Source: a virus. Taken from it: a stretch of 29,939 nt of DNA. Shown here one piece after another: positions 1,101 to 26,919 of the stretch; the stretch's first letter is position 1; each line of letters starts with the position of its first letter. The DNA lies in the IMG/VR virus record IMGVR_UViG_3300017751_000137, positions 1-29,939 of that record; one strand, written 5' to 3'. A model generated the notes under the pieces. The model had not been told where the DNA came from. It saw only the letters and a list, made by a program, of their open reading frames with translations, and made no database searches. Made by a program: the position numbers and the translations under genes.

Positions 1101-1793
1101 CTACTTCAAGTATTTATAATTTTTCTCAAATGAAGAAGTAAATTTGTAATTAACGTGAGCAGAATCAGCCCATATAGTGCTTTCTCGCAACCAGCCGAGT
1201 GCTGGAGTGGGATTTGCTAGCGCTAATGGTACTTGAGTTCGGCGTTGGCCACGTATAAAGTAAGCATTATCAACAGCACCTAAAACACCGCGGCTTTCAA
1301 TCTCATGTACAAGAAATTGCGCAGTACGCTTTGTCATTGCATACGCATGGGCACCTTCATGGCCATCAATAGGTAAGAGTTCAGTTGGTGGGCCGGCTGT
1401 AACGTGATCATAATTTTCCGGATCTGCTATCTTATAACCGAGTACTACGATTACTCCATCCGGTATTTCAATGTCTGGGTAGTGCAGCATGAGAGCGTCA
1501 TGTTCTAATACGATACCCACTGCGTCAGAGCCGGTGGCAATACGTTTCCAAATAGCACCATGGCCGGCACTACATGCATTTGCCTTTTGAGCTGGAGTTG
1601 GATTAGGAAGATATTTGATAGGTTCGTAAAACTTCATCTTGATACCAGAGTTACACCAACCGGCTTTGCCAGTCATGTTCTGATATCCTTTATGATATTC
1701 CCAGTCAAGACCGACTCGATCACAAGAATCAGCACATACTTTTGCGTACTCTTTTGACAGGTCAGTCTCGATCCTGAGAATATAAGCTTTCAT
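1101..1793 (-). CDS. Glycosyltransferase family 25-like protein
   Basis: A 230-residue protein. The segment CSAGHGAIWKRIA, followed about 15 residues later by VLEHDALM, matches the GT25 (LPS biosynthesis) pattern of a GC-SH-iW helix and an EDD/EHD metal or sugar-nucleotide motif. GHEGAHAYAMTKRTAQ fits the family's later 'G-xAYxxxxxxA' segment. GT25 enzymes transfer hexoses to lipopolysaccharide or protein. Here it could modify the host surface or virion glycans. The start codon abuts the SHMT stop at 1793, so it is co-transcribed with SHMT and the P-loop kinase from the promoter near 3.5 kb. Family assignment is by motif only. Confidence 0.65.
   Translation of the reverse strand: MKAYILRIETDLSKEYAKVCADSCDRVGLDWEYHKGYQNMTGKAGWCNSGIKMKFYEPIKYLPNPTPAQKANACSAGHGAIWKRIATGSDAVGIVLEHDALMLHYPDIEIPDGVIVVLGYKIADPENYDHVTAGPPTELLPIDGHEGAHAYAMTKRTAQFLVHEIESRGVLGAVDNAYFIRGQRRTQVPLALANPTPALGWLRESTIWADSAHVNYKFTSSFEKNYKYLK
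1111..1118 (-). promoter_or_regulatory. T4-type late promoter (TATAAATA)
   Basis: The minus strand reads TATAAATA, the exact T4 late -10 consensus, 37 bases before the nucleotidyltransferase ATG at 1074. It is embedded in the last codons of the upstream glycosyltransferase gene. No -35 is needed at this promoter class, which uses gp55, gp33 and the sliding clamp. Confidence 0.75.
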
Positions 1794-2932
1794 TATTTAA
1801 GGGCTTGTACAATACGAACTGCAAGTTGACCGAACCAAACTTCATCATGTCCACGAGTTGTTTCGGCAGCAGTACCAATACGAATACCGCTTGTTTCCAT
1901 GAATGGGCGAGGATCATTTGGAATGCCATTCTTATTTACAGTAATACCTTTTACTTCGAGTATGTCTGCAGCTTCACGGCCTGAGTATTTGCTTTCGCTT
2001 AAGTCAAGTAATATGATATGCGAATCAGTTCCACCTGTTTGTACTTTAAATCCGTACTCATTGAATATGTCACACATTGCTTTAGCATTACGAATTACTT
2101 GTTCTGTATAATCGAAGAACTCTTTCGTATTTGCTTCCATAAATGCTTGAGCTTTAGCAGCAATGATATTCATCAAAGGACCACCTTGAGTGCCTGGGAA
2201 GATTGCTGAGTTAATTCGTCGAGTATAGTCTGGATTATTCCATAAGATGATTCCACCACGAGGACCACGGAGTGTTTTATGTGTCGTGGAAGTTACAACA
2301 TCTGCATGAGGGAGTGGACTATCATAAGCACCACCGGCAATCAAACCTGAGTAGTGAGCCATGTCAACCATTAAGTAAGCACCAACCTTATCTGCAATTT
2401 GACGGAACTTGCGCCAATTGATTTGACGTGGATAGGCACTGGCACCTGCAATAATGAGATGTGGATTATGTTCAACAGCAAGTCTTTCAACTTCGTCATA
2501 ATCAATCCAACCATTCTCGTCAACACCATAATTTGCTGCATTATAAACTTTACCTGAGAGAGTAACAGGTGCACCGTGAGTGAGGTGTCCGCCACTAGCA
2601 AGATCCATACCAAGTATTCGATCACCCGGCTTCAGAAAGGCTTGAAATACTGCTAAGTTAGCGTTAGCGCCAGAGTGCGGTTGTACATTAGCAAACTCAC
2701 AATCATACAAGTCTTTCAGTGTGTCGATGGCAAGCTGCTCAATTTCATCCATGTGATCGCAACCATTATAGTAGCGTTTGCCTGGATAACCTTCAGCGTA
2801 TTTGTTCGTAAATTCCGATCCACATAGTTTCATTACAGAATCAGAAGCGAAGTTTTCAGAAGCAATGAGCTCAACGGTTGTTTGCTGTCGCTTCAATTCT
2901 TTTTGATAAATTCTATCGATTTCAGTGTACAT
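1793..2932 (-). CDS. glyA: Serine hydroxymethyltransferase
   Basis: A 379-residue PLP enzyme that converts serine and tetrahydrofolate to glycine and 5,10-methylene-tetrahydrofolate. Family landmarks are present: LIASENF, NKYAEGYPGKRYY, QPHSGANAN, GGHLTHG, VDMAH, the PLP lysine K219 in STTHKTLRGPRGG, and SGIRIGT near the C-terminus. Compared with cellular GlyA (about 417) it lacks roughly 15 N-terminal and 30 C-terminal residues, but no catalytic motif is missing. It overlaps the kinase gene upstream by 11 bases and abuts the GT25-like gene. One-carbon units from it could feed thymidylate or modified-pyrimidine synthesis during phage replication; this role is inferred. Confidence 0.95.
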   Translation of the reverse strand: MYTEIDRIYQKELKRQQTTVELIASENFASDSVMKLCGSEFTNKYAEGYPGKRYYNGCDHMDEIEQLAIDTLKDLYDCEFANVQPHSGANANLAVFQAFLKPGDRILGMDLASGGHLTHGAPVTLSGKVYNAANYGVDENGWIDYDEVERLAVEHNPHLIIAGASAYPRQINWRKFRQIADKVGAYLMVDMAHYSGLIAGGAYDSPLPHADVVTSTTHKTLRGPRGGIILWNNPDYTRRINSAIFPGTQGGPLMNIIAAKAQAFMEANTKEFFDYTEQVIRNAKAMCDIFNEYGFKVQTGGTDSHIILLDLSESKYSGREAADILEVKGITVNKNGIPNDPRPFMETSGIRIGTAAETTRGHDEVWFGQLAVRIVQALK

Positions 2933-3530: not shown

Positions 3531-4313
3531 CTACTTCTTTCGGTTTGGTCTATTGCTCTTAGGCATTAGCGACTCTCGTCTTTTTGCCGCTTTTCTTGCA
3601 TCTTCTTCTTTTTGTTTTTCCGACTTTTCTGCTGGAGTAAAATGGACTCCACAATAGTTGATCCGTTTCTGGATGAAGAAATAGTCATTTGCGATACGTT
3701 CTTCGTTTTCATACTCGTGGCAGCAGGCCATGTCATAGCGACGTTCTCCATTGATAATGTTTTTAAACTGATCTGGTTCATTAAACGTAGCTGTTCGTTT
3801 AAAGTCAAAACCATATACATTCATTACATCAAAATCGTACTCGTTAATTAATGCCATGATATACATTCCCGTAGAAAAGTTACGTTCCATAACAATGCCG
3901 GGAACGGTGTATCTGTTGAGTATTCGGTTACGGCTAGGGAAGCATTGATGTTCGTTAAAAATGAAATGCTCTCGAGTCAAGTACTGATTCATATTCAGTA
4001 TGTTGATACTACGATCTTCGAGTGCTTGCATTAATCGAGGTGGATTTGTTTCGGGTTTGACACGATTTAAAAAGTAACGATAGTCCCAAAAGGCCCATAC
4101 ATCATTACGTTTTCCGTGGGTTTTTTTATATTTGCGATCATCGAAATATATCGCAGGACGGTTGATGCGGATTACAATATCATGATCATCAATCTCTTTA
4201 CCTTTCATTTGTGTAAAGAGAGATTCAGCATTACCAACGAGTGCGATCGATTTACCTTTGACAAAGTCTTGAAGTGTAGGACCTTCCGGCTCACCGGGCT
4301 TTCTATTTTTCAT
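3531..4313 (-). CDS. Glycosyltransferase family 29 (sialyltransferase)-like protein
   Basis: A 260-residue protein. Residues 20-52 read like the sialyl motif L: GKSIALVGNAESLF, then a GxxID-HDIVIRINR stretch. Residues about 147-170 (STGMYIMAL, then VMNVYGFDF) resemble motif S, and H199 begins an HxxxxE-type segment like the VS motif. GT29 enzymes transfer sialic acid from CMP-sialate; bacterial and viral relatives can have other donors, so the substrate is open. The C-terminal 30 residues are very lysine- and arginine-rich. Together with the GT25-like gene and the phosphomannomutase it suggests glycan remodelling of virion or host surface. Family by motif reading only. Confidence 0.7.
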   Translation of the reverse strand: MKNRKPGEPEGPTLQDFVKGKSIALVGNAESLFTQMKGKEIDDHDIVIRINRPAIYFDDRKYKKTHGKRNDVWAFWDYRYFLNRVKPETNPPRLMQALEDRSINILNMNQYLTREHFIFNEHQCFPSRNRILNRYTVPGIVMERNFSTGMYIMALINEYDFDVMNVYGFDFKRTATFNEPDQFKNIINGERRYDMACCHEYENEERIANDYFFIQKRINYCGVHFTPAEKSEKQKEEDARKAAKRRESLMPKSNRPNRKK

Positions 4314-10534: not shown

Positions 10535-11476
10535 TTAACCACGGGCGAGATCTTTGAAGATTGCGAGATCGTCATCATCGTCATCAGAAGCTGCAGATGA
10601 AAGGTCAGCAGTAGGCATTGCAGGCTCAGATACCGCAGACTCAGTAGACATGCTTGAGAGGTCTAGGTCGTCAGTGGTGTCTGAAGCAAAGGTTGGTGCT
10701 GCCGCAACAGGTTCAACGGATTCAGATGCTAGATCAAGTACTCGATAGAGCTTGGTCTTAAGTTCTGAGTAAGACTTGAAGTTCTTAGGATCTACAAGGT
10801 CTTGCAAAGAATGCTCAGCCTTCCATGTTTCTTCCATTTGATCGTCATCATCAAATAGTGGAGTTGGAGCATCAAACTCAGACTTATCATAGTTTGGGTA
10901 ACCTTCGAACTGTCGAATCTTAAGACGGAAGTTTGCACCTTCCCAAAGATCGAATGGGTTTACTGGATCTTCATCCTCAAATGTAGGATTCATAAGATCG
11001 TTTAACTTATCGAAGATTTTCTTACCGAAGGCATACATGAATACCTTACCTTCGTTTTCAGGGTTAGCGGAATCTTTGACTACGTAAATGTTAGAGTAGT
11101 ACTTGAGACGACGCTTTTGCTTACGAGCTTGATCCTTATCAGACTCAACACCAGAATTCCAAAGCTTAGAGTTAAACTCAGAAACTGGATCATCTATGCC
11201 GACTGTAGTCAAGCTGTTTTCAATGTACCACAAACCTGTAGGACCTTGGAAGCCATGATCCCAGATTCGAACAAAAGGCATTTCCTCACCGTTAGGTGCT
11301 GGTAGGAAACGAATAACTGCAAAACCGTTACCAGCTTTATCGCGAGTAGGTTTCCAGAATTTACCTTCGTTAGGATCTGAATAAGATTTAGTGGTGATTT
11401 TCTCGAGTTGCTGGTTGAGCTTGTCGAGAGACTTAGAACGATTCTTCTTGAGCGAAGCAAAGTCAGTGGGTGCCAT
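10535..11476 (-). CDS. 32: Single-stranded DNA-binding protein gp32
   Basis: A 313-residue T4-type SSB. The OB-fold core is recognisable from IRFLPAP, IWDHGFQGPTGLWYIENS, YYSNIYVVKD, NPENEGKVFMYAFGKKIFDK and the ANFRLKI segment. The N-terminal basic arm (KKNRSKSLDKL) is the cooperativity region. The C-terminal region is a Ser/Ala/Asp linker ending in six aspartates and LAIFKDLARG, the acidic tail that contacts gp59 and UvsY. Oddity: there is no cysteine anywhere, so the His-Cys3 zinc site of T4 gp32 is absent; the corresponding loop reads SLTTVGIDDPVSEF. A promoter within gene 59 lies upstream. Confidence 0.94.
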   Translation of the reverse strand: MAPTDFASLKKNRSKSLDKLNQQLEKITTKSYSDPNEGKFWKPTRDKAGNGFAVIRFLPAPNGEEMPFVRIWDHGFQGPTGLWYIENSLTTVGIDDPVSEFNSKLWNSGVESDKDQARKQKRRLKYYSNIYVVKDSANPENEGKVFMYAFGKKIFDKLNDLMNPTFEDEDPVNPFDLWEGANFRLKIRQFEGYPNYDKSEFDAPTPLFDDDDQMEETWKAEHSLQDLVDPKNFKSYSELKTKLYRVLDLASESVEPVAAAPTFASDTTDDLDLSSMSTESAVSEPAMPTADLSSAASDDDDDDLAIFKDLARG

Positions 11477-11523: not shown

Positions 11524-12120
11524 TTAGAAGAAGTAGCCACGGATTATCTCCTTGAACTTCTTTTCATCATAAACTAGAAAGGGTTTATACTTTCTAGATA
11601 GTCTAATTATATCACGTGAGATGATCCTGTCAACGATTACTTTGTCCCAGTAGGAAAAAATATTTGCTGACGCAGTCAATATTGTAAATGTCTCTAGCGA
11701 AATCTGCCTTTGATTATACAATGTCATAATGTAAGGATGCTGACCATCCCGTGATATAAAATTTTGTTGATAGTCTTCTTTAAGATTTTTCAACTCACTT
11801 TTGAAAGTATACGACAAGGACTCCTGTCGTTTCTTCCATTCTATATATCTAGAGTTTGATTCCTCATCTAAGAGTTCACGAATCCAGATATTCGGTTTTA
11901 CTAGCATATTAGCGAGCATAAGATTTATAAAGTCTTCTCGCTTAGCTAGTTTAGTGAAGAAGTACGAGTCATTACGAGTACGAAATGTATCCATAGATGC
12001 TCGGACTTTTCCATTGTACTTGAAGTAGTCATACGAATCAGTAGTAAAATGCTTCTTCATCGCGAGGTATTTAATGTATACCTCGTAGCCTACATCATTC
12101 ACAGATGTCGGTGAGATCAT
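11524..12120 (-). CDS. 59: Helicase loader gp59
   Basis: A 198-residue basic, helix-rich protein matching T4 gp59 in layout: an N-terminal 'YIKYLAMKKHF-YDYFKYNGKVRAS' block, then RNDSYFFTKLAKR and a C-terminal helical half with SLETFTILTASANIF. In T4 it loads the gp41 helicase onto gp32-covered forked DNA. Its start lies inside the 3' end of gene 33 (26-base overlap), and genes 32 and 41 follow. The end of this gene also holds the gp32 promoter. Confidence 0.88.
   Translation of the reverse strand: MISPTSVNDVGYEVYIKYLAMKKHFTTDSYDYFKYNGKVRASMDTFRTRNDSYFFTKLAKREDFINLMLANMLVKPNIWIRELLDEESNSRYIEWKKRQESLSYTFKSELKNLKEDYQQNFISRDGQHPYIMTLYNQRQISLETFTILTASANIFSYWDKVIVDRIISRDIIRLSRKYKPFLVYDEKKFKEIIRGYFF
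11606..11633 (-). promoter_or_regulatory. Sigma70-like promoter for gene 32, inside gene 59
   Basis: Minus strand TTGACA at 11633-11628, 16-base spacer, TATAAT at 11611-11606. It lies within the 3' end of gene 59, about 130 bases before the gp32 ATG, and would give gp32 its own high-level message. Confidence 0.65.
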
Positions 12121-12337
12121 CCGTTTCGTCCTTTTGTACCATACGAAGAGTCACAGCCTCACTGCGAATCTTTTCTTTTAAGATCGAACTTTTCTTTACA
12201 ATCTGAGCGATCGTTTCAATTTCAACGTTATTCCTTTCGGCGTACTCAACAAGAGCATCGATGTAAGGAACTCCTTGCGATATATGTCTTGAAATCTCAT
12301 GATGTATTTTATCAGGCGTTAGTGCCACAATTGACAT
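12095..12337 (-). CDS. 33: Late transcription co-activator gp33
   Basis: 80 residues when started at MSIVALTPDK; I chose this ATG because AGGAAAGGAG lies eight bases upstream, inside the longer frame that begins at MNRKG. The helical sequence IHHEISRHISQG-VPYIDALVEYAERN and the acidic end DETDDLTDICE match marine T4-like gp33. In T4 gp33 bridges RNA polymerase and the sliding clamp and is needed for transcription from TATAAATA promoters, which are frequent in this window. The promoter at 12374-12402 drives it together with 59. Confidence 0.82.
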   Translation of the reverse strand: MSIVALTPDKIHHEISRHISQGVPYIDALVEYAERNNVEIETIAQIVKKSSILKEKIRSEAVTLRMVQKDETDDLTDICE

Positions 12338-12373
12338 ATCTTCTTCATCTCCTTTCCTATTCATATGCGTACC

Positions 12374-13282: not shown

Positions 13283-13966
13283 CTATATCTCTTCGAATAG
13301 GACGTCGTTAACGTAATCATCCTTATCGGATTCTGATATTCCCCATGAAAGAATCGAGGAATGCAGCATCTTATTCATTTTCTGATTGATACAATATTTG
13401 TTTTGAGCGTCAGTCGTATCTAAACTTTCGTCTACTTTAAGTCCTCGTATCGCATTGAAATAGAACTCAGCCATTATTCCTGCAGCTAAGATAAGTTGAT
13501 CTGTTTCTGGTCCTTGTCGGATCGATCCAGCAGCAATCATTTCTGGTGTAAAGATTTCTTGAGCCCAAGGTGGTAACTCACGTTCTCGCTTCCATTCAAA
13601 AGTTTTAGTAATATCTTGAAAGAAATCGGTGAATTCTTTTTGATTCTCAGTTGTAGGTGAGAAGTCACAGAAGCAACCACTAATCTTGTTAGGGGTCGCT
13701 ACTATGTCTAAGCCAAAGATGGGTGCATCGATGTTTGATGCCGGAAAAACATTCATATGTAAAAGCCATTGCTTACGATTTTTACCTCCGGGTTCTATAA
13801 TCTTAAGGTGTGCTTTTCTTATTTTATTCGAAGTCCAAAACCAATCAGTCCACCCTTCAAACTCGTGGACATGCTTTGCATTAGCGTATCGAGTCATTTC
13901 AAGATCAAATGTATCTCTTAAAGCAGATGCGACTTCTTGACACTCATCTATTAAAGTTCTGCTCAT
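13283..13966 (-). CDS. pcyX: Ferredoxin-dependent bilin reductase, PcyA/PcyX-like
   Basis: A 227-residue enzyme that reduces biliverdin with electrons from ferredoxin. The core IRKAHLK, LLHMNVFP, IFGLDIVATP, FCDFSP lines up with Synechocystis PcyA, as do RELPPWAQEIF and the C-terminal KYCINQKMNKML and DDYVNDVLF. Equivalents of PcyA His88 (H70) and Asp105 (D87) are present, but the position of PcyA Glu76 is Lys55. That argues against a true PcyA and for a PcyX/PebS-like product, possibly phycoerythrobilin. The start MSRTL overlaps the heme oxygenase stop as TAATG, so the two are coupled. Family certain, subclass and product inferred. Confidence 0.88.
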   Translation of the reverse strand: MSRTLIDECQEVASALRDTFDLEMTRYANAKHVHEFEGWTDWFWTSNKIRKAHLKIIEPGGKNRKQWLLHMNVFPASNIDAPIFGLDIVATPNKISGCFCDFSPTTENQKEFTDFFQDITKTFEWKRERELPPWAQEIFTPEMIAAGSIRQGPETDQLILAAGIMAEFYFNAIRGLKVDESLDTTDAQNKYCINQKMNKMLHSSILSWGISESDKDDYVNDVLFEEI

Positions 13967-14586
13967 TATTCTTCCCATTCACCAGTACTGTTCAGGTTTG
14001 CTAATCTTGCTTCGCCACTCTCAAACTCGTCCTCATTCGTATAGTATTCTTCCATCAACTCTTGAAACAAGCGCTCAGCGTATTCAAAACAAATCTTAGC
14101 CTCATCAGCCATTCCATCATGTAGTAAGTCACGTATACCCTGAATGAGCTCTCGACGATTCTCGAACTCGTACATAGTTCCACTACCAGGCACACCTCGT
14201 TTAATGATCTGGCCACCATGTGCATCTCCGAAGTGACGTACATATAAGTGAGCAAGTAGTGCATCAGCATCTTTTGCTTCTACCAAGGTTTGAATGTGAC
14301 TACAATACTCTGTTACTGAGCGGTAGTCTGTTTCGATTTCTTCAAGCTGATATAGTGATTCGAGTTCTTGTAAATCTTGTTCAATTTGTGCAGACCTGAA
14401 TATAGGTTCAAGTTCTACTGGTACCGATACTGCAGACTCGACTGCTAAGTAATTTTGCAGTTGTGCATGTAAGTACATTTGATATAGTCTTGGCGAAATC
14501 TCACCGCCCAAGAGCATATCAGCGAAAGCTGTTCGTTCAGCATTATCGTGATGTTGTTTTGTTAGCTCTTTAAGATTATTTGCCAT
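13966..14586 (-). CDS. ho1: Heme oxygenase
   Basis: A 206-residue enzyme that opens heme to biliverdin, CO and iron, with reductant from ferredoxin or similar. H13 in QHHDNAERTAF is the proximal heme ligand (HxxAE pattern), and HFGDAHGGQIIKR near 118-130 is the distal-helix signature (GDxxGGQ). The length is typical of bacterial and cyanophage enzymes. I chose MANNL as start because GGAG lies five bases upstream; an earlier in-frame start lacks a ribosome site. It feeds the bilin reductase directly downstream. A TATAAATA late promoter lies 56 bases upstream. Confidence 0.92.
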   Translation of the reverse strand: MANNLKELTKQHHDNAERTAFADMLLGGEISPRLYQMYLHAQLQNYLAVESAVSVPVELEPIFRSAQIEQDLQELESLYQLEEIETDYRSVTEYCSHIQTLVEAKDADALLAHLYVRHFGDAHGGQIIKRGVPGSGTMYEFENRRELIQGIRDLLHDGMADEAKICFEYAERLFQELMEEYYTNEDEFESGEARLANLNSTGEWEE

Positions 14587-14641
14587 TCTCACTCCGATCA
14601 TTTAGTTATTAAAATTTAACGTTTGCCGCTAAGTTCAAGTG

Positions 14642-14649
14642 TATTTATA
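14642..14649 (-). promoter_or_regulatory. Late promoter for the bilin cassette (TATAAATA)
   Basis: Exact TATAAATA on the minus strand, 56 bases before the heme oxygenase ATG. It shares four bases with the plus-strand late promoter at 14646-14653; together they read TATTTATAAATA, a self-complementary 12-mer. Confidence 0.75.
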
Positions 14650-14653
14650 AATA
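14646..14653 (+). promoter_or_regulatory. Late promoter for the plus-strand small-gene island (TATAAATA)
   Basis: Exact TATAAATA on the plus strand, 36 bases before the ATG at 14689, overlapping the opposite late promoter. Confidence 0.75.
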
Positions 14654-14688: not shown

Positions 14689-14838
14689 ATGGAAAAGACT
14701 GTTGAAGAAAGACTTGCAGCATTGGAAGCGTGGACACATCCACCAGTTGCACCCGGTGGGACTACCGAAATAATGGATCTCATTAATAATCTCGAAAAAC
14801 AAATAAAAGAATTAAAAGAGGAGAAACACGATGTCTGA
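14689..14838 (+). CDS. Small coiled-coil protein
   Basis: A 49-residue protein (MEKTVEERLAALEAW at its start, LINNLEKQIKELKEEK at its end): two short heptad-like helices joined by a Pro/Gly linker. I use the ATG after GGGGG at 14679-14683 rather than an upstream in-frame codon, because the late promoter lies between them. It overlaps the next start by eight bases. Function unknown; an oligomerising partner of the membrane protein that follows is plausible. Confidence 0.7.
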   Translation: MEKTVEERLAALEAWTHPPVAPGGTTEIMDLINNLEKQIKELKEEKHDV

Positions 14839-15154
14839 CGAACAAAAGACTTTCCATCCAGCTGATAGCAATGGTGATGGTGTAGTTAGCGACCTAGAGC
14901 ATGAAATGTATATGGAGTTTAAGCGTAAAGAGTTAGAAGACGCTGATGCTATGAGAGATGCTCAACGCAAGATGGCGTGGTTTGCTCTTTTCGGTATGCT
15001 TCTATATCCTTTCGCAGTCGTATTAGCTAACTGGGTAGGCCTCGATGGTGCATCCAAAATATTAGGTGATATGGCAGCAACTTACTTCGTATCTGTCGCT
15101 GCTATCGTAGCTGCATTCTTTGGTGGACAGGCTTTTGCCAATTCCAAAAAATAG
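14831..15154 (+). CDS. EF-hand-like, two-span membrane protein
   Basis: A 107-residue protein. Residues about 13-24 (DSNGDGVVSDLE) form a canonical 12-residue EF-hand calcium loop. A charged helix follows, then two membrane spans (WFALFGMLLYPFAVVLANWV and FVSVAAIVAAFFGG) with a short polar turn. A similar protein occurs, from memory, in marine T4-like phages, where its function is not established. Two spans and late expression would suit a holin or a membrane-anchored late protein, but this is not shown. It lies in a three-gene late island ending at a terminator. Confidence 0.75.
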   Translation: MSDEQKTFHPADSNGDGVVSDLEHEMYMEFKRKELEDADAMRDAQRKMAWFALFGMLLYPFAVVLANWVGLDGASKILGDMAATYFVSVAAIVAAFFGGQAFANSKK

Positions 15155-17351: not shown

Positions 17352-17573
17352 CTACGGAGACCCTTTATAGTACTCCAATATTTTATTTATAGCTGAAATG
17401 TGGTCTTCTAGCATTTCACAATCGAGCTCAAGGTCTTCGGAAAAAGTCATAAAACCGTTATGACCTCGTCTTAAGTCAAGGCTTTGTGCAAAATCTCTTC
17501 GTAAATCTTCGAGTTCTTGAGTTACGATTTGATCAATAATTTCTGGTTCAACCGGTATACTATGTTCTAGCAT
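17352..17573 (-). CDS. Conserved small T4-like protein
   Basis: A 73-residue acidic helical protein (starts MLEHSIPVEPEIIDQIVTQE). From memory it resembles a short gene of marine T4-like phages with the 'I-V-DxIVxxxLxxL' start and a helical end (HISAINKILEYY). No function known. It overlaps the end of the phosphomannomutase gene by 14 bases, so the two are co-translated. Confidence 0.7.
   Translation of the reverse strand: MLEHSIPVEPEIIDQIVTQELEDLRRDFAQSLDLRRGHNGFMTFSEDLELDCEMLEDHISAINKILEYYKGSP
17384..17391 (-). promoter_or_regulatory. Possible late promoter (TATAAATA) inside a small gene
   Basis: Exact TATAAATA on the minus strand within the 3' end of the 73-residue gene, 52 bases before the ATG at 17332. 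It could be chance codon use (Ala-Ile-Asn-Lys), so confidence is lower. Confidence 0.5.
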
Positions 17574-18282
17574 CTTGGTATCCTTTTAATAGTTCCCAGG
17601 TGTGTTCCCATCCATCTACTTCATGAACGGTACCTGTTTCTGATAATCTAATTGTTGTAGCGATAGCATAATCATTACCGCCATGTTTACATCGATCTCC
17701 GAAAAACATGATCTCGTCGTATTCTTCAGTGAGCTCTTTAGCTACTCGAGATTTATCATTACCCTTTGGATAAATGTCAATACTAATCTCACCGCCGATC
17801 GATGCGTTAATTGTTTTAAACTTAGTTGTTAAAGCTCGTACTATGATTGCGCGTTCCTGTGTCTCTTTATCCCAAGCAAAGTAAGCTTTACGCTGGTCTT
17901 GAGTAGCATTACGCCCTACAGTACTAAAGTTAATCATACCTGTTCGTCTTTCAACGTGTCGGCCTGTCTTTACTGGATAGCGACTGTTTTCTTGAAGTCC
18001 TTCGAGAAAGTGAGTCATCTCGTATTCTGGAATCCAGTTTTCAGCATGAAGTCGAAAGTCTTTTTTCCACTTTTCATTCCCATTACATTGATAAACTGAT
18101 ATGCACTTATCATAAAGACGTTGACCGATCTGTTCTAAAGTCTTACCTCGATCACTGCCTGATACTAAGTAGACATTATTCGTTTCCATAAACTCAAGCA
18201 TAAAGCTTTCGAACTCTGAATCGATCTTCCCACGGGCTGGTGTTAAGGTACCATCCACATCAAACAAAAATACCCTTTTCAT
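17560..18282 (-). CDS. Eukaryotic-type phosphomannomutase (HAD family)
   Basis: A 240-residue HAD enzyme that would interconvert mannose-6-phosphate and mannose-1-phosphate. FDVDGTLTPARGKI at 7-20 holds the two catalytic aspartates D8 and D10; QCNGNEKW, RRTGMINFSTVGRNAT at 112-127, GGEISIDIYPKGNDKS (lysine K177) and FFGDRCKHGGND at 194-204 follow the order of PMM1/PMM2 proteins. The length matches the PMM2 class (about 245). This class differs from the alpha-D-phosphohexomutases most bacteria use. Product could feed GDP-mannose or GDP-fucose for the glycosyltransferases in this window; that link is inferred. Confidence 0.85.
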   Translation of the reverse strand: MKRVFLFDVDGTLTPARGKIDSEFESFMLEFMETNNVYLVSGSDRGKTLEQIGQRLYDKCISVYQCNGNEKWKKDFRLHAENWIPEYEMTHFLEGLQENSRYPVKTGRHVERRTGMINFSTVGRNATQDQRKAYFAWDKETQERAIIVRALTTKFKTINASIGGEISIDIYPKGNDKSRVAKELTEEYDEIMFFGDRCKHGGNDYAIATTIRLSETGTVHEVDGWEHTWELLKGYQDART

Positions 18283-21447: not shown

Positions 21448-21476
21448 TTGACATTTGCACTCGACTGTATTAGAAT
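21448..21476 (+). promoter_or_regulatory. Sigma70-like promoter for methyltransferase-topoisomerase operon
   Basis: TTGACA at 21448-21453, 17-base spacer, TAGAAT at 21471-21476, beginning right after the stop of the 48-residue gene and about 25 bases before the methyltransferase ATG. Confidence 0.75.
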
Positions 21477-21501
21477 GGCACCTTCAATATGGGATTTAAG
21501 T

Positions 21502-22209
21502 ATGAAACCAGCATTAAACATTAACATAGATTGTGGTCCATTAGACATAGACCATATATCGAACATGCGTAAGGAGTTCTTTCAACGCATGGATTATGAG
21601 TGGTGGGTAAAGGTTGAGCCAGGAGATGTAGTCGTAGATGTTGGTGCTTGTGTAGGATTCTTCACATGTGCTGCTCTCGACAAAGGTGCTTCTCGAGTCT
21701 ATGCTATTGAGCCTAATGAGGAATTGCTACAACTCGTCATGAAGAACTCTTTTGGTTATATCAAAAACCAGCCTATCTGCCCAGTCATTCCTATTCATGC
21801 AGCTATGGGTAATGACATTAAACACGTCAAGCATGTATACGATGATGGTAACGATTTCCCTATGATTGCGTTTAGGGATTTCTTACATCAGCAAAACCTA
21901 CTACATATTGACTTCATGAAAGTCGATTGTGAAGGTGGTGAGTACAGCTTCTTAAATGGCGAGAACTCTGCTTGGATCTTTGACAACGTAGATCGTATGG
22001 CGATCGAGATTCATTTAAGAGCGACACAAACTGGTAAACAAGACTTTATTGAGTTTCGAGATAATTTTCTCAAACCCTTCTTTGATGCTAATCGAGTACG
22101 ATTCATGCATAGTAATTTGAAGGATACAATATGGCAGGACTCATATATACTCGAAGAAAACTACAACGAAGTTCCTGCAGAATTTATGATCTACATTACA
22201 GGTAAATAA
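21502..22209 (+). CDS. FkbM-family methyltransferase
   Basis: A 235-residue SAM-dependent methyltransferase. VVVDVGACVGFFT is motif I (SAM binding), AIEPNEELLQLV follows as the acidic loop, and IDFMKVDCEGGEYSFL carries the family's KxDxEG-E signature. I start at MKPALN; an upstream in-frame codon lies in the promoter. FkbM enzymes O-methylate sugars or other small molecules; the target here is unknown but the sugar genes make a glycan plausible. A paralogue lies at 26206-26919. It ends on the first base of the topoisomerase gene. Confidence 0.85.
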   Translation: MKPALNINIDCGPLDIDHISNMRKEFFQRMDYEWWVKVEPGDVVVDVGACVGFFTCAALDKGASRVYAIEPNEELLQLVMKNSFGYIKNQPICPVIPIHAAMGNDIKHVKHVYDDGNDFPMIAFRDFLHQQNLLHIDFMKVDCEGGEYSFLNGENSAWIFDNVDRMAIEIHLRATQTGKQDFIEFRDNFLKPFFDANRVRFMHSNLKDTIWQDSYILEENYNEVPAEFMIYITGK

Positions 22210-26205: not shown

Positions 26206-26919
26206 TTACCAATTCGTAATGTAGATCATAAACTTATCAGGCAATAGTTCCTTAAAGTTATCCGCATACATCTTCTCTTCGATCTTATTATCTTGATACT
26301 TGACTCGGCCTAGATCATGAAATGGTTTTAGGAATTTGTCTCGCCATTGAGTAAACTTAAGCTCAGATCCATATTGCGCATTGATATGAACCATGATTGC
26401 CATGTGTCTTACATTCTGCGCACAAAAATCTCGAGCATCCTCAGATAGAATACCAAACTCAGCTCCTTCAGCTGCAACCTTCAGAAAGTCAATCTTTTGA
26501 ATATTGTGAGTTTGGCATAATTGTCGCAATGACATTAGCGGTGCTTCGGGACTTCCAGGTATGCGCTTTCGTATTCCAAACACATTACCGAGATCAACAT
26601 CAGTTTTACCTATTGCAGCATGAATAGGAATCACTACTGGATCTGACCTTCCTATAATATAATCACTTACATTACCAATCGCAGTCTTGAGTAGACTTTC
26701 ACTAGGTTCTACCATGTAGACTCGCTTTGCTCCTACATCTAATGCACACGCCGAAAACAAACCTACACCTGCACCAATGTCAACAACGACATCACCTTCA
26801 CTAACGGTGCGCCACCAATCGTAATTTCGAGTAATGAATAAGCGATTATGAAGATTAACTACTTCATGCATGGGTAGGGCACCCATATCCGCTTCGGTGT
26901 GGAAAGCTTTTTGAACCAT
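26206..26919 (-). CDS. Second FkbM-family methyltransferase, inverted
   Basis: A 237-residue paralogue of the protein at 21502-22209 (shared DYxWW start region, VVVDIGAGVGLFSACALDVGA motif I, VIPIHAAIG, FLKPF and the MIYIT end). Oddity: the family KxDxEG signature reads KVAAEGAEF, so the aspartate is alanine; the other copy keeps KVDCEGGEY. This may change or abolish activity. It is the only minus-strand gene in the right half, with its own TATAAATA promoter 35 bases upstream and GAGG before the ATG, consistent with insertion as a late, self-contained unit. Confidence 0.82.
   Translation of the reverse strand: MVQKAFHTEADMGALPMHEVVNLHNRLFITRNYDWWRTVSEGDVVVDIGAGVGLFSACALDVGAKRVYMVEPSESLLKTAIGNVSDYIIGRSDPVVIPIHAAIGKTDVDLGNVFGIRKRIPGSPEAPLMSLRQLCQTHNIQKIDFLKVAAEGAEFGILSEDARDFCAQNVRHMAIMVHINAQYGSELKFTQWRDKFLKPFHDLGRVKYQDNKIEEKMYADNFKELLPDKFMIYITNW

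Follow-up and report, generated by a model that had tools for sequence, protein, structure and literature searches.

Two adjacent genes on the minus strand of the window (the whole stretch of viral DNA analysed here, 29,939 bases long, which is the entire IMG/VR record IMGVR_UViG_3300017751_000137) encode a heme oxygenase (HO) and a ferredoxin-dependent bilin reductase (FDBR; Table 1). Both genes lie where the original prediction had placed them, and the stop/start overlap by which HO was said to be coupled to FDBR is exact. HO matches the Pfam family Heme_oxygenase (PF01126, 1.5e-21) well over the cut-off, while FDBR matches Fe_bilin_red (PF05996, 2.3e-19; 70 bits against a cut-off of 31), and the observation of an HO-FDBR cassette is confirmed. 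The internal start of HO is the one backed by its relatives, in most of which the HO-FDBR junction is also short or overlapping.

Table 1. Features of the bilin cassette and its surroundings in the window.
Feature	Positions	Strand	Remarks
gp33-like late-transcription co-activator	12095..12364	-	phrog_254, 1.6e-12; neighbour of the cassette
FDBR	13283..13978	-	lysine clade; 231 aa, or 227 aa from the coupled ATG at 13966
TAATG, where the HO stop overlaps the coupled FDBR start	13964..13968	-	direct reading of the sequence
HO	13966..14601	-	211 aa; internal ATG at 14586 gives 206 aa
Palindromic T4-type late promoter TATTTATAAATA	14642..14653	.	exact motif; faces HO (-) and divergent small genes (+)
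Divergent small protein	14831..15154	+	107 aa; by eye, hydrophobic segments and an EF-hand-like loop DSNGDGVVSDLE; palindromic promoter in common with HO

The heme oxygenase displays the features of the HO-1/HmuO type, namely the fold (AF2 model with a pLDDT of 81 and a TM-score of 0.69 to HmuO, 1iw1), the proximal histidine (His18) and the distal Gly-Asp-Gly-Gly residues (G125, D126, G129 and G130), these residues being retained in 13 relatives. On the basis of fold and residues, the enzyme is expected to cleave heme, yielding biliverdin IX-alpha and releasing iron and CO. The reductase is likewise recognised as an FDBR by both family profile and fold: its AF2 model (pLDDT 88) resembles PcyA with a TM-score of 0.80 and a Foldseek E-value of ~1e-12, and PcyX with TM-scores of 0.67/0.84 (0.84 by target length). 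By sequence, the closest solved structure is PcyX_EBK42635 (5owg, 2.3e-30), PcyA coming second (1.2e-11). Residues H57, K59, H74 and D91 align with H74, E76, H88 and D105 of PcyA, and the catalytic His-Asp pair (His88 and Asp105 in PcyA; H74 and D91 here) is invariant in the clade to which the window reductase belongs. In work on PcyX this pair is reportedly essential, and the aspartate at the Glu76 site dispensable. With both enzyme families, their folds and their key residues present, the window appears to encode the complete heme-to-bilin route that had been proposed for it.

The site corresponding to PcyA Glu76 distinguishes the window reductase from the characterised families. In an alignment of relatives from viral contigs, this site is a lysine in all 58 sequences of the window clade (hereafter the lysine clade), an aspartate in the PcyX rows and a glutamate in cyanophage and Synechocystis PcyA. 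Asp55 of PcyX would occupy the same position, given the alignment to 5owg and the specificity of Asp55 to PcyX stated in PMC11480375. A careful tree built from 56 sequences recovers the lysine clade (98/96) and PcyX (99/98) as two monophyletic groups that are sisters of one another; a quick tree of 110 sequences gives the same picture. The tree was built without the bacterial AX-clade PcyA and without CB_2, and its alignment retained the Glu76-site column, one of 234. The phylogeny for which the original prediction had called places the reductase within neither PebS, which sits on a long separate branch, nor PcyA, whose Glu76 is replaced by Lys59. The description of the enzyme as PcyX-like holds as far as affinity is concerned; it is nevertheless not PcyX proper, since it falls outside the PcyX clade, in the sister group, and carries lysine in place of the PcyX aspartate. 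The lysine sister clade appears, provisionally, to be new, as the literature consulted does not describe it. We put forward only tentatively the idea that lysine at this site marks a further FDBR family with a regiospecificity of its own, making a bilin new to phages, in proteobacterial viruses that supply both a 5-aminolevulinate (ALA) synthase and a terminal oxidase free of heme.

Other viral FDBRs near the PcyX branch carry glutamate (L336 and L341) or glutamine (L322) at the Glu76 site and may be related to PcyA of the CB_2 type; L341 additionally carries AlaS, the ALA synthase. As for a bacterial source of the window reductase, no close relative was found in the scan of genome contigs, in plasmids, in 398 sampled Pseudomonadota or in three SAR92/SAR86 genomes; a rare or distant bacterial PcyA may have served as the source.

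Values of dN/dS between close pairs in the clade, 0.09-0.23 for FDBR and 0.05-0.16 for HO, show that purifying selection acts on both genes in the relatives. HO and FDBR also travel together. FDBR is present in 21 of the 21 viral records retrieved in an HO-led scan (one of which, L139, has the PcyX-type aspartate), and in the reverse check HO was absent only from L277, whose closest kin show a 1.5-kb insert, and from records in which FDBR lies close to the end of a contig. The nearest kin of the window (L110 and L108) possess a proline-rich ORF of 491-527 residues between HO and FDBR, which by eye resembles a virion protein.

The exact late promoter reported ahead of the cassette is present. 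The motif TATAAATA occurs on the minus strand at 14649-14642 and overlaps a plus-strand copy at 14646-14653, so that the site is a palindrome. The seven copies of TATAAATA in the whole window, against 2.75 expected, are weak evidence alone; of 35 distinct relatives, however, 32 have an exact copy no more than 150 bases ahead of HO (~0.02 expected per region), mostly within the same palindrome. Two of the three exceptions, L117 and L309, belong to a group with a permuted tmRNA just upstream of HO, which was identified in G012 by ARAGORN and Rfam and whose tag in L309 was read by eye. Conservation of the motif provides strong evidence from sequence for late transcription of the cassette. The divergent 107-aa protein on the other side of the promoter is 81% identical in G001, a 170-kb relative (IMGVR_UViG_3300020056_002227), and 55% identical in G008.

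That the carrier is a T4-like phage was borne out by PHROG matches to a core set of T4 genes in the window (gp41, UvsX, gp32, gp59, gp33, both topoisomerase II parts, UvsY and a helicase). The association of the cassette with gp33 is retained in G001, G003 and G008, and T4 topoisomerase II is found in several members of the lineage. The window gp41 is closest to those of Caulobacter and Methylophilales phages, the topoisomerase has its best matches in Vibrio phages, some core proteins match cyanophages at ~50%, and the terminase of G001 is closest to those of Sinorhizobium phages. As had been claimed, the window is devoid of photosynthesis and phycobilisome genes: neither psbA/D (PF00124, Photo_RC) nor phycobiliprotein (PF00502) gave a match in the window or in any of 30 related viral records; as a control for the former, P-SSM2 gave the expected signal. 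Plant-type ferredoxin was not found in these records either, the P-SSM2 and Mosig controls being detected. Since most of the 31 records are fragments, and six were recruited through the oxidase or the receptor described below and not through the cassette, the absence of photosystem and ferredoxin genes is most secure for G001, at 170 kb the fuller genome in which photosystem genes were sought and none found.

Several other genes of the window deserve mention. A serine hydroxymethyltransferase (1793-2932, minus strand; 561 bits), labelled 'methyltransferase' in its PHROGs family, is conserved in the lineage. Positions 3531-4313 (minus strand) give a match to glycosyltransferase family 29 (sialyltransferase-like) that is weak yet over the cut-off, and positions 17560-18282 (minus strand) match eukaryotic-type phosphomannomutase (PF03332, 5.5e-34). 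Two FkbM-type methyltransferases with the same best match in G001 lie on either side of the topoisomerase genes (21448-22209, plus strand, and 26206-26919, minus strand).

Could the carrier be a divergent cyanophage that uses the cassette for light harvesting in a cyanobacterium? Cyanophages with ho1 and pebS or pcyA share with the window the class of chemistry and a T4-like background, and some core proteins of the window match theirs at the level given above. However, these phages have other FDBR families, carry photosystem genes and infect cyanobacteria, whereas the window reductase is neither PebS nor cyanophage PcyA, psbA/D are absent, and topoisomerase II is of the T4 type with Vibrio phage affinities. 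Furthermore, the terminase of G001 and its TonB-dependent receptor, nearest to that of SAR92, have non-cyanobacterial kin. We reject a cyanophage origin, which is hardly credible in the light of this evidence. Instead, a proteobacterial host is likely. Permuted tmRNAs are known from alphaproteobacteria, some betaproteobacteria and cyanobacteria. Such genes were found at L167:13686-13952 and L170:17430-17682 as well as upstream of HO in L309, being directly upstream of HO in one group, and two relatives have the tags ANDDVYTEDFALAA and ANDDVYDMEYALAA. The search of the window for tRNAs and Rfam families returned nothing, and the tRNA, tmRNA and CRISPR evidence gave no host assignment. A short match to the abiF RNA (45 bits, gathering threshold 37) was noted in the relative G008 (L163:2463-2494).

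As a gene pair the cassette is already known: PcyX beside hemO has been published, and the isolated Pelagibacter phage Mosig EXVC030M, which infects a heterotrophic alphaproteobacterium, possesses the pair. A non-cyanobacterial carrier, as proposed, is probable but no longer surprising, given Mosig and the hemO-pcyX-alaS contigs published in 2024 (PMC11480375). The marine phages with PcyX and hemO resemble the window in providing the best PDB sequence match, in having HO adjacent, in their viral T4-like background and in the His-Asp pair. They differ in bearing aspartate at the PcyA Glu76 position, where the sister clade of the window, at ~30% identity, has lysine, and their cassette lies by neck genes, whereas that of the window lies by gp33. 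Mosig shares gene order, coupling and T4-like affiliation with the window; conversely, both proteins are only 34% identical between the two, and Mosig has a GC content of 33% and a cassette beside a neck protein. It encodes a 2Fe-2S ferredoxin and a ferrochelatase of its own, and its annotation lists no topoisomerase II. The differences in cassette position, GC content and topoisomerase II annotation argue against simply assigning the window lineage to the Mosig-type pelagiphages. The alaS-hemO-pcyA/X cassettes described by Wegner et al. 2024 (PMC11480375) likewise combine HO with FDBR and have AlaS at another place in the genome, an arrangement shared with G001. On the basis of gp13 their contigs are grouped with pelagimyophages, the text consulted mentions no lysine branch, and the freshwater CB_2 PcyA makes phycocyanobilin, unlike the product expected for the window.

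Relatives of the window encode further functions connected with heme. G001 contains an ALA synthase (TIGR01821, 566 bits against a cut-off of 339), a copy of which, 70% identical, lies at the start of G008. A few kb from AlaS, at positions 10842-11423, G001 encodes an alternative oxidase (PF01786, 1.3e-63). The latter is not a cyanophage-type terminal oxidase, as no cyanophage was matched and the only match was Phage C48C1, at 60%. More than 200 viral relatives of this oxidase were found (among them L185-L264), C48C1 being the sole named phage among them. One of these, L260 (IMGVR_UViG_3300048036_000455), carries the oxidase together with a cut AlaS; it comes from the same metagenome as L002, a 100% copy of the window cassette, and could be another piece of the phage of L002. 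The proximity of a heme-free oxidase to AlaS in G001 might suggest that the cassette deprives host respiration of its heme during takeover while the phage oxidase sustains electron flow. We consider this very unlikely: AlaS makes a heme precursor and would oppose depletion, most oxidase-bearing viral loci show neither AlaS nor HO nor FDBR in the available DNA, and the window itself yielded no oxidase.

Directly after its major capsid gene, G001 also encodes a full TonB-dependent receptor (165036-167894; TIGR01782, 443 bits), whose nearest cellular kin found are those of SAR92 gammaproteobacteria (55-57%) and SAR86 (33%). A chimeric contig can be rejected as its origin, because ten related viral contigs (L175-L184) carry the receptor after gp23, at 67-100% identity. 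Receptors of this class often import iron compounds, which bears on the suggestion that the cassette acts late in infection or in heme/iron recycling. Whereas late action is upheld by the promoter, recycling is possible without being the best-supported reading. In such a scheme HO would be the working enzyme, freeing iron late in infection, and FDBR would merely clear biliverdin to keep the reaction running. HO is indeed the first gene of a late cassette, and iron supply is discussed for such cassettes in PMC11480375. Nevertheless, HO alone would suffice for this purpose, yet FDBR is kept alongside it under purifying selection; heme that is made via AlaS, as in a near relative, and then broken down yields zero net iron; and the receptor type (Xanth-Caul) does not indicate a heme or iron substrate. 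We regard iron recycling as unlikely on these grounds.

Our preferred reading, which we hold to be probable, is that of a late two-gene operon of a T4-like phage with a likely proteobacterial host, producing a reduced bilin other than phycocyanobilin with the help of host ferredoxin. HO would first open heme to biliverdin, with release of iron and CO, and the coupled FDBR would then reduce biliverdin with electrons assumed to come from host ferredoxin, the search of the lineage for a ferredoxin gene having yielded none. PcyX is a phage phycoerythrobilin synthase, converting biliverdin to phycoerythrobilin via 15,16-dihydrobiliverdin. Judging from kinship to this sister enzyme, phycoerythrobilin would be the likeliest product, a two-electron product being the alternative. 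Phycocyanobilin is an unlikely one, since Glu76, which is required for 18-vinyl reduction in PcyA (PMC10151467) and is thought to be the first proton donor (PMC9800206), is lysine in the window. Against this explanation, the products of FDBRs are hard to predict from sequence (PMC13193486), and the evidence of AlaS comes from relatives and not from the window. The phage would probably gain from the bilin itself more than from iron, given that FDBR is paired with HO and that heme synthesis is paired with heme breakdown in a relative. The purpose of the published phage cassettes is likewise acknowledged to be open in PMC11480375. One conceivable use is the loading of a host phytochrome or bilin-binding globin with the bilin, altering host light signalling. 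The product of a freshwater phage PcyA is reported to assemble a functional phytochrome in E. coli (PMC11480375), and pre-PcyA clusters include bilin-binding globins (PMC10151467); phycobiliprotein (PF00502), on the other hand, occurs in none of the 31 related viral records, and we judge such chromophore supply to be rather improbable.

The cassette of the window extends the known range of phage heme-to-bilin gene pairs beyond pelagiphages and cyanophages to a separate lineage, and the conservation of its late promoter hints at the stage of infection at which the product is required. Finally, three sister groups of FDBRs carry glutamate, aspartate or lysine at one and the same active-site position, and a determinant of the product of bilin reductases is therefore directly testable.
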